A DNA stretch of 64,000 nt. Origin: Natrinema sp. DC36 (GTDB lineage: Archaea; Halobacteriota; Halobacteria; Halobacteriales; Natrialbaceae). Positions 34,035-36,144 of this stretch are shown piece after piece (position 1 is the first letter of the stretch; each line of letters starts with the position of its first letter). The stretch lies in the NCBI RefSeq assembly GCF_020405225.1, contig NZ_CP084472.1, positions 2,976,001 to 3,040,000 on the forward strand. The letters run 5' to 3'. Made by a program: the position numbers and the translations under genes. The notes under the pieces are model-generated. The model made no database searches, was not told where the DNA came from, and was given only the letters and a program-made list of their open reading frames with translations.

Positions 34035-34652
34035 ATGTTCGATACTCGCCCCAACCGAGGGGCCGAAATGGCCCTCGTCGGCCGCTCGAACGTGGGCAAA
34101 TCCACGCTCATGCGCGAGCTGACCGGCCACAGCTTCGACACCGGCGGCAAACCCGGCGTCACCCGCTCGCCCAACCACTACGACTGGGCCCCCGAGGACT
34201 TCGTCATCACCGACCTCCCCGGCTTCGGCTTCATGAGCGGCGTCGACGAGGAGCACCGCGAGCAGATCAAGACCGACATCGTTCACTACCTCGAGGAGTA
34301 CGCCGACAACGTCCTCGTCGCGATTCTCGTCGTCGACGGCAAGAGCGTCATCGACATCATCGACCGCCACTCCGGACCCGACGAGATCCCCTACGACGTC
34401 GAGATGTTCCACTTCCTGCGCGATCTCGACGTCCCGACGATCGTCGCCGTCAACAAGATGGACAAGGTCGACGACGAGGACGAGCGCCTCGACGCCCTCT
34501 GCGACCGCCTCGGCCTCTACCCGCCCTGGAAGCAGTGGCAGGACACTATCGCCCCCATCAGCGCGAAGAAGGGGCAACTCGAGCCGCTGAACGAGGCCGT
34601 CCGGAGCCACCTGCACGAGCAGAACAGGGACGATCTGTTCAAATTCTTCTGA
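34035..34652 (+). CDS. engB: GTP-binding protein EngB (YihA family)
   Basis: A 205-residue TRAFAC-class GTPase. G1 is GRSNVGKS (residues 16-23), G2 is in KPGVTRSP, G3 is DLPGFGFM and G4 is NKMDK. The PGVTR and PGFGF phrases are diagnostic of EngB/YihA. In bacteria EngB is needed for 50S ribosomal subunit assembly; archaeal members are assumed to act similarly. A strong TATA box lies directly upstream. Its stop at 34652 is followed by the hairpin cluster, and it converges with the D-2-hydroxyacid dehydrogenase gene. Confidence 0.93.
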
Positions 34653-34670
34653 CCAACCTTTTGCGCTGCG

Positions 34671-35016
34671 TGCGGTCGCTTCGCGACCGCACTCGGCAAA
34701 ATCTCGAGAGAGCGCGGAGCGCTCTCTCGGACCTCGCGGGAGCTCCGCTCCCGCTTAGCGTTGATGAAAAGCACTCTTCCCTCCGTTCCGAGCGCTTCGC
34801 GCTCTCCACATCGGTCATCGGCCCGCTCGCTCCCTGACTCGCGGCCGTTGGCCGCTCGTCTTTGCGCGGCGCGAAGCGCCGCGCGTTCGGTCGCTCGCGG
34901 TGATTGACTGGGAAACGCCTGCCCTTCCCCGCTGAGCGGACGCAACGCGTCCGCGATGCTCGGAAGAGCTTGCTCTTCCGTTGGGTTGCACGACTCGAGT
35001 ACTACGAGAGTCGTGC
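34671..35016. repeat. Cluster of nine short perfect hairpins between convergent genes
   Basis: This 346-base, gene-free stretch contains nine perfect inverted repeats with mostly 3-nt loops: 34671-34691 (9 bp, loop TTC), 34706-34728 (10 bp, GGA), 34736-34754 (8 bp, TCC), 34790-34804 (6 bp, TTC), 34841-34855 (6 bp, GTT), 34864-34884 (9 bp, GAA), 34936-34954 (8 bp, AAC), 34961-34980 (9 bp, TT) and 34988-35016 (9 bp, 11-nt loop). The stem sequences differ from one another, so this is repetition of form and not of sequence. Being symmetrical, the same hairpins form on both strands. The bases on either side (34653-34670, 35017-35071) also contain no gene. Confidence 0.85.
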
Positions 35017-35071
35017 GCCCGGCCAGTGATTCGAGGCCAGTGTCGTCTCGGACTCCAAATCGGGACCGTCC

Positions 35072-36013
35072 TCAGACGACTCGGTTGTGAAGCGCCTCGT
35101 CGTCCTCGATTCGGTGGACGTTCTCACGGACGATATCGCCCACATCTCGGAAGTAGTCTCGCGTGTACGCGGCGCAGTGCGGTGAGATGAGTACCTCGTC
35201 TAGCTCCCAGAGCGGCGAGTCCTCGGGTAGCGGCTCCTCCTCGAAAACGTCCAGCGCCGCTCCCGCGAGCGAATCCGCCTCGAGGGCGTCGATCAGCGCC
35301 GGTTCGTCGACGACCGGCCCTCGAGCGACGTTCACGAAGTACGCATCGTCGCGCATGGCGTCGAACGTCTCGGCGTCGAAGAGGTGATGCGTCTCGTCGG
35401 TCAGCGGCACGGTAACGATCACGAACTCGGCGTCAGCGATCGCTTCGAACAACCGGTCGTTCGCGTAGATCTCGTCGAAACCGGGAACCGGATCGTCGGA
35501 GCGCCGGACCCCCGTCACGCGGACCCCGAGCGCGCCCAGCGTTTCCGCGACACCGCGACCGAGCGTGCCTGTTCCGACGACGCAGGCCGTCGACCCGGGG
35601 AGCGTGAACGCTTCGTTCCACGCCGGTCGCTCCCACCGGCGTTCCCGCTGGTTCGCGACGTGGTCGTGGAGCCGCCGAGCGAACGTGAGCAGGTAGCCCG
35701 CGACCGTCTCGCCGACGGTTCGGTCGTGAATGCCCGTGCTATTCGTGAGGACGACGCCGCGTTCCTCGAGGTCGTCAAACGGAAATCTGTCGACTCCCGC
35801 CTGAATCGAGTGGACCCACTCCAGATCGAGGAACGCCTCCCGGTACTCGAGGGTGACGACCGCGTCGCAGCCCGCGATCCCGTCGTCGTCGATGACCTCG
35901 ACCTCGATCGGGAGATCGGTGAGGTGCGTCGCGAGCTCCTCCGGCGGAAAGACGTCGCGGACCGACTCGTGGATGCCCAGACTGTCGACCGGCGACTCGA
36001 GTTGGGTACGCAT
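35072..36013 (-). CDS. D-2-hydroxyacid dehydrogenase
   Basis: A 313-residue NAD(P)-dependent enzyme. The substrate-binding domain contains HSIQAGVDRFPFDDL and NSTGIHDRTVGETVAGYLL; the Rossmann motif is VVGTGTLGRGVAETL (the usual GxGxxG). Catalytic residues fit the family: Arg in VNVARGPVVDEPAL, Glu in DVFEEEPLPEDSPLW and His in LISPHCAAYT. It interconverts a 2-keto acid and a D-2-hydroxy acid. The substrate (glyoxylate/hydroxypyruvate, phosphoglycerate or other) cannot be assigned. ATG 36013 is used instead of GTG 36019. Its 3' end abuts the hairpin cluster. Confidence 0.93.
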   Translation of the reverse strand: MRTQLESPVDSLGIHESVRDVFPPEELATHLTDLPIEVEVIDDDGIAGCDAVVTLEYREAFLDLEWVHSIQAGVDRFPFDDLEERGVVLTNSTGIHDRTVGETVAGYLLTFARRLHDHVANQRERRWERPAWNEAFTLPGSTACVVGTGTLGRGVAETLGALGVRVTGVRRSDDPVPGFDEIYANDRLFEAIADAEFVIVTVPLTDETHHLFDAETFDAMRDDAYFVNVARGPVVDEPALIDALEADSLAGAALDVFEEEPLPEDSPLWELDEVLISPHCAAYTRDYFRDVGDIVRENVHRIEDDEALHNRVV

Positions 36014-36144
36014 ACGCACCGCTACGAACGAGGCGAGATTGAACCTTTGGTCGATTGCGATCCGGAAACCGACCCCATCGACGGGTTTTCTGACTCGGAG
36101 ACCACTCTTTCATATTGATATACTACCGGTCGTAACGTCCTGCT

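Follow-up and report, generated by a model that had tools for sequence, protein, structure and literature searches.

A dispersed haloarchaeal 3'-end element with a conserved scaffold and exchanged hairpin stems

Introduction

Why should a series of small hairpins, each of a different sequence, stand side by side between two genes? We analyzed a 64,000-nucleotide stretch of the Natrinema sp. DC36 genome (the window), in which an earlier reading, made from the letters alone (the sequence-only reading), had singled out nine inverted repeats between the convergent genes for EngB and a D-2-hydroxyacid dehydrogenase. The questions are whether this array belongs to a wider family, how its stems come to differ and what it might do.

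Results

Hairpin array of the window

The nine repeats are present, and the stretch that they occupy is gene-free. Eight perfect inverted repeats with GC-rich stems lie at 34670-34980, with loops of 3 nt in seven of them and of 2 nt in one; the ninth, at 34988-35016, has a perfect 9-bp stem and an 11-nt loop. The sequence-only reading was right about perfect stems and mostly 3-nt loops, but its stem range of 6-10 bp has to be widened to 6-11 bp. Shuffled sequences do not give comparable clusters: 2,000 dinucleotide shuffles of the intergenic region (IGR) contained 0.66 hairpins on average and four at most, compared to the eight observed, and when the whole window was shuffled 60 times, no more than six were found per 350 nt, again compared to eight. 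Sister strains are not unstructured here, as most Natrinema relatives have the element described below after engB. RNA folding of the array gave z = -7.7. Two open reading frames (ORFs), one of 142 aa on the minus strand (34517-34945) that overlaps the structured repeat and one of 100 aa on the plus strand (34535-34837) that overlaps the element, look spurious; ORFs of this kind may be annotated as hypothetical proteins in other genomes.

Plan of the element

The window IGR had 29 partial matches in its own genome, and matches were found in 39 of the 61 genomes searched (DC36 and relatives). It should be noted that the matches were modular (query positions 1-49, 6-132, 40-132, 111-180, 115-279, 171-249 and 236-344), which was the first hint of a scaffold with interchangeable parts. 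The base of the element is a T-tract palindrome (P1), i.e., (stop codon)-N0-4-CNANNTTTTGC ... GCAAAANNTNG. Its order is TTTT arm, hairpin, AAAA arm, which places TTTT on both strands around GC-rich hairpins; downstream of P1, conserved linkers bear interchangeable hairpin cassettes. Orthologous comparison located the same element directly 3' of the engB stop codon in about 16 Natrialbaceae. The engB copies follow the order P1 5' arm with TTTT, apical hairpin, P1 3' arm with AAAA, linker GATSAAAAGCACTCCTCCCTCC, slot-2 hairpin, linker ACATCGGTCGTCGGCCCGCTCGCTC, slot-3 hairpin(s), GCTCGCGG, linker GCCTGCCCTTCCCC and terminal hairpin, and the shortest of them (L010) is about 190 nt long.

The window copy (Table 1) is enlarged by three cassettes: X in the P1 3' arm, the halves of which (GCAAAA and GTTG) it separates, Y in slot 3 and Z in slot 4. 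Cassette X was also found in L020, both L153 copies, L113, L111 and L116. Cassette Y stands at slot 2, not slot 3, in L020, L136 and L158, and its place in L020 indicates that cassettes move between slots. Copy L148 has two extra hairpins between those of cassette Z, and the P1-apical stem of the window recurs in other copies with the loops AGA, AAA, GAA and others.

Table 1. Features of the window copy and its neighboring genes (window coordinates)
Feature	Positions	Strand	Remark
engB	34035-34652	+	PF01926; upstream neighbor of the array
engB stop codon TGA	34650-34652	+	element begins 1 nt downstream
P1 5' arm CAACCTTTTGC	34654-34664	+	plus-strand T-tract; invariant TTTT at 34659-34662
P1-apical hairpin GTGCGGTCGC-TTC-GCGACCGCAC	34670-34692	.	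perfect inverted repeat
P1 3' arm, first half, GCAAAA	34696-34701	+	T4 on the minus strand
Cassette X, two hairpins	34702-34759	.	inserted within the P1 3' arm
Cassette X hairpin 1, CGAGAGAGCGC-GGA	34705-34729		
Cassette X hairpin 2, GCGGGAGC-TCC	34736-34754		
P1 3' arm, remainder, GTTG	34760-34763	+	by alignment with copies without cassette X
Conserved linker 1, GATGAAAAGCACTCTTCCCTCCGTTCC	34763-34789	+	second minus-strand T4 (GCTTTTCATC)
Slot-2 hairpin GAGCGC-TTC-GCGCTC	34790-34804	.	
Conserved linker 2, CCACATCGGTCATCGGCCCGCTCGCTCCC	34806-34834	+	
Slot-3 cassette Y, two hairpins	34835-34886	.	
Cassette Y hairpin GCGGCC-GTT	34841-34855		
Cassette Y hairpin GCGCGGCGC-GAA	34864-34884		
Conserved linker 3, ending GCCTGCCCTTCCCC	34900-34930	+	
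Slot-4 cassette Z, two hairpins	34931-34981	.	
Cassette Z hairpin GCGGACGC-AAC	34936-34954		
Cassette Z hairpin CGGAAGAGC-TT	34961-34980		
Terminal hairpin GGGTTGCACGACTC...GAGTCGTGCGCCCGGCC	34983-35023	.	9-bp stem at 34988-35016
D-2-hydroxyacid dehydrogenase gene	35072-36019	-	PF02826; convergent with engB

Distribution and sites

We built a covariance model of the element (R1, 140 positions), which had 27-37 matches in the DC36 genome and matched 29 of 29 genomes of the genus and 116 of 125 Natrialbaceae genomes. The R1 E-values are rough throughout. In the class survey, where per-genome match counts are to be read as "at least", matches were found in 198 of 292 sampled Halobacteria genomes and 61 of 77 genera; the suspicion of the sequence-only reading that similar clusters may be frequent in haloarchaea was thus borne out. 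The T-tract/hairpin/A-tract plan was found directly 3' of engB in Halomarina, Halostella, Halosimplex, Halorarius, Haloarcula rara and Salinibaculum, and slightly farther from the stop codon in Halorhabdus; several of these engB assignments outside Natrialbaceae rest on position and sequence reading, the R1 score alone not being significant. The same plan follows homologues of the thermosome, TFS and PAN genes in genomes of other haloarchaeal families. Judged by these sequence comparisons, the array is one copy of a dispersed, ancient and class-wide haloarchaeal 3'-end element. No Rfam covariance model matched at the gathering threshold at 10 loci, and the window gave only sub-threshold noise. 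The element is apparently undescribed, as our literature search met no description of it in openly accessible papers; subscription papers could hold an earlier one.

The 207 copies that we collected fall into 25 multi-member orthologous clusters and 15 single copies. We searched explicitly for coding ORFs that terminate beside P1. In 137 of 198 de-duplicated copies, and in 22 of the 25 clusters, the distance from the coding stop to the start of P1 is -3 to +4 nt, with all three stop codons represented. The upstream genes, identified through Pfam for ten proteins and by reading translations for the others, have housekeeping roles and include engB and those for the large and small subunits of PolD, PAN, the thermosome, PurF, diphosphomevalonate decarboxylase, uL16/L10e, TFS, TbsP, aIF1A and TrkH. 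Convergent genes flank 17 of 25 sites, compared to 228 of 443, a mild enrichment (P = 0.15). Several sites lie between co-directional genes (8 of 25), and a model restricted to convergent genes was therefore rejected.

Some copies depart from the plan. In L157, L107, L124 and L133, the P1 5' arm is replaced by a conserved hairpin module, GATGACGAAAGACGCC-NNN-GGCGTCTTTCGAACCAC. In Natrinema pallidum (L011:1373-1590), an insertion with the ends ATGTGTTTACCCCCA / TGGGGGTAAACACAT interrupts the engB 3' region, and an identical end was seen within another copy of the element (L135, about 1394-1424, G001). Such elements could be hot spots for insertions.

Covariation and turnover of stems

We compared the two arms of P1 across copies. 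Cells with both partners changed numbered 29, compared to 9.3 in shuffled data, and the P1 pairs of 127 copies comprised 1,338 Watson-Crick, 4 G.T and 2 A.C pairs. No G.T intermediates were seen at the covarying positions 2, 4 and 10. The T4/A4 tracts are near-invariant, T4 being kept in 132 to 134 of 134 copies while adjacent P1 positions covary.

Orthologues with nearly identical flanks show how fast the stems turn over. Among 145 orthologue pairs with flanks 90-99% identical, the apical hairpin differs in 142 and P1 in 107, and 197 P1 positions changed on both sides, compared to 23 changed on one side. Only 1.5% of orthologous pairs share an identical apical segment. Some swaps have sharp borders: in the comparison of L012 with L234, the two arms of P1 and the apical hairpin have been replaced, and the swap stops at linker sequence, the next ~90 nt being essentially identical. 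Stems are thus swapped wholesale between close orthologues, with G.T and A.C intermediates almost absent. Identical P1 types are shared across sites (up to 12 clusters each), and their presence at many sites fits an exchange between copies. We consider it nearly certain that this is a conserved family that evolves with its scaffold kept and its stems swapped. The conserved linkers and swapped stems agree with the earlier impression that form is kept while sequence varies. The accompanying statement on origin fared less evenly: the stems do differ within the array, but the idea that no unit had been copied fails, as scaffold and hairpin cassettes recur in ~30 copies in the DC36 genome and in most haloarchaea.

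Inversion and chemistry of loops

After removal of exact duplicate genomes, 27 same-stem orthologous loops with all three bases different were available, and in 18 of these comparisons one loop reads as the exact reverse complement of the other (null mean 8.2, P = 0.002, 10 clusters). Larger segments are inverted as well: compared to L140, copy L146 has the 32-nt interior of P1 in exactly inverted form, and that of L138 is inverted with diverged sequence. Loop inversion and stem perfection are indicated, by analogy to rRNA hairpins (PMC8794818), as signatures of template switching, which the sequence-only reading had proposed to occur at small loops. Template switching is probably a major contributor to hairpin turnover. 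The symmetry of the loop pool could come partly from conversion by copies that already bear the inverted loop. In one copy (L159:1834-2023), the usual TCTGCG/CTCGG internal loop has turned into a perfectly paired stem, which looks like the product of copying one arm onto the other.

The oligonucleotide d(GCGAAGC) is an exceptionally stable DNA mini-hairpin (cited in PMC10527192). Of the 268 element hairpins whose stems reach 8 bp, 205 have 3-nt loops, compared to no preferred loop length in background hairpins. The loops of the element are closed by C-G in 96-99% of cases, and GNA/TNC loops make up 68% in the element compared to 19% in the background. The rule of stable mini-hairpins extends to d(GCGNAGC), and the C-G-closed GNA/TNC loops of the element are of this type on one of the two strands.

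Discussion

Possible function of the element

In Haloferax volcanii, T-stretches terminate transcription with about 95% efficiency, and a hairpin alone terminates as well (59%; PMC7237163). Together with these data, the least variable T4/A4 tracts, their position ~6 nt past the stop codon and TTTT on both strands favor a two-way T-tract transcription terminator or insulator, the role that the sequence-only reading had listed among others. This appears to be the most likely function, with a probability of roughly 0.5, termination being suggested by sequence and by analogy to Haloferax. RNA polymerase leaving the upstream gene would meet T4 about 6 nt past the stop codon, pause before the hard-to-melt, GC-rich hairpin DNA and then release; polymerase from the opposite direction would meet the T4s of linker 1 and then P1, and the downstream hairpins might act as a pause and read-through trap. 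As the form alone would matter, the hairpin sequences would turn over rapidly. Small loops would be the sites of template switching, which would invert loops and perfect stems, and short-tract conversion between copies would swap whole hairpin domains. We infer these molecular agents of turnover; the family, its position, the covariation, the stem swaps, the loop inversions and the loop chemistry were directly observed. Several points count against termination. The T4 of P1 falls short of the T5C assayed in Haloferax, the enrichment of the sites for convergent genes is mild, with several sites between co-directional genes, and an end of transcription already at the first T4 would leave the linkers conserved 100-300 nt farther on unaccounted for. 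It should also be noted that no more than about 30 genes per genome have the element, which is therefore not the general terminator.

Conserved linkers would find a natural place if the array were transcribed with the upstream gene and acted as a structured 3'-UTR or processed non-coding RNA, the linkers being recognized single strands and the roles including protection from 3' exonucleases and binding of proteins or sRNAs. The constant orientation and placement of the element 3' of the upstream gene, the covariation of the stems, the RNA fold score and the median length of first 3' UTRs in Haloferax (97 nt; PMC7237163) are consistent with it. However, G.U pairs are nearly absent and no commoner than A.C (4 versus 2 among 1,397 P1 pairs, 1 versus 3 in hairpins, numbers too small to show whether one kind is better tolerated), the covarying P1 positions changed without G.T intermediates, loops occur in both orientations, the C-G-closed GNA/TNC triloops fit the DNA mini-hairpin rule and Rfam returned no match; we regard an RNA role as unlikely.

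In a third reading, the element is a repeat of the REP/BIME or MITE kind that a transposase acting in trans has spread and that is tolerated as parasitic DNA. This would explain the dispersal of the copies, the presence of cassettes at more than one slot and a short, nearly identical subfamily with variable flanks, one copy of which is on contig C2 and which has three identical copies in G025 and four in G080. Most copies, however, abut stop codons and are found at orthologous sites shared by different genera and families, and the stems are not the conserved part, unlike those of REPs; the reading is rather improbable as a whole. Recent mobility as the main explanation was rejected because the copies are orthologous. 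The short subfamily itself (L140-L144 and L146 in the DC36 genome, L249-L251 in G025) has a near-identical core of ~125 nt, lies away from stop codons (L143 at C2:310628-310752) and shares outer flanks that resemble inverted TTTCTTTATTC... ends; it has the appearance of a MITE-like carrier that moved the element recently.

We give little chance to a DNA landing or folding site (nucleoid, SMC, replication or a supercoil-absorbing cruciform), for which single-stranded or extruded GNA mini-hairpins would be the functional form: the loop length, C-G closure and GNA/TNC bias fit exceptionally stable DNA mini-hairpins, the stems are perfectly Watson-Crick without G.U and the hairpins flip freely, but a purely architectural site needs neither a position tied to stop codons nor an orientation tied to the upstream gene.

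Comparison with known systems

Like the REP/BIME repeats of enterobacteria, the element has tens of palindromic intergenic copies per genome, in arrays and often at gene 3' ends (survey in PMC12306157). It differs in that conservation lies in the unpaired scaffold and variation in the stems, whereas the stem sequence is conserved in REPs, and in that its copies are fixed at orthologous sites, starting at the stop codon. A search of the main text of that survey (RepRanger, PMC12306157) found no haloarchaeon named. With the T-stretch terminators of Haloferax volcanii (PMC7237163), the element shares the T-tract right 3' of the gene (in the window, the TTTT downstream of the engB stop codon) and hairpins, which occur near some Haloferax termini. 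Here, in contrast, T4 before and A4 after the hairpin form one covarying palindrome, and a conserved scaffold of 200-400 nt is restricted to about 30 sites. Bacterial bidirectional intrinsic terminators also have a GC hairpin between A/T tracts that serves both strands; however, the order in P1 is reversed (T-tract, hairpin, A-tract instead of hairpin, U-tract), and a scan for bacterial intrinsic terminators gave two weak matches, compared to 0.4 expected, neither at P1.

Template-switch RNA hairpins (PNAS 2022, PMC8794818) show the same mutational signatures, loop inversion and stem perfection. In rRNA, loop inversions are rare, with 69 loop-inversion-only cases (Table 1 of PMC8794818), whereas in the element they account for two thirds (18/27) of the fully different same-stem orthologous loop changes. 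Integron attC sites resemble the element in conserving form over sequence, in their place just 3' of an ORF and in their DNA hairpins; the attC boxes RYYYAAC / GTTRRRY were not found in the P1 types, most P1 arms being CGAAA.../...TTTCG.

Significance

A wider, more tentative proposal, which we hold possible yet somewhat doubtful, is that of a hitherto undescribed kind of class-wide archaeal element with plan and place conserved through the whole history of Halobacteria and with hairpins free in sequence. For its function, perfect GC stems that end in C-(GNA/TNC)-G DNA mini-loops would be sufficient, and its sequence would be continually rewritten, behind essential genes, by loop inversion and copy-to-copy exchange.

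The element would add a conserved, structured 3'-end component to the archaeal gene plan and would link archaeal termination with hairpin DNA. Across hundreds of genomes, it also provides a natural system of numerous replicate sites from which events of hairpin birth, loop inversion and stem exchange can be traced, so that the template-switching model of hairpin evolution becomes directly testable.
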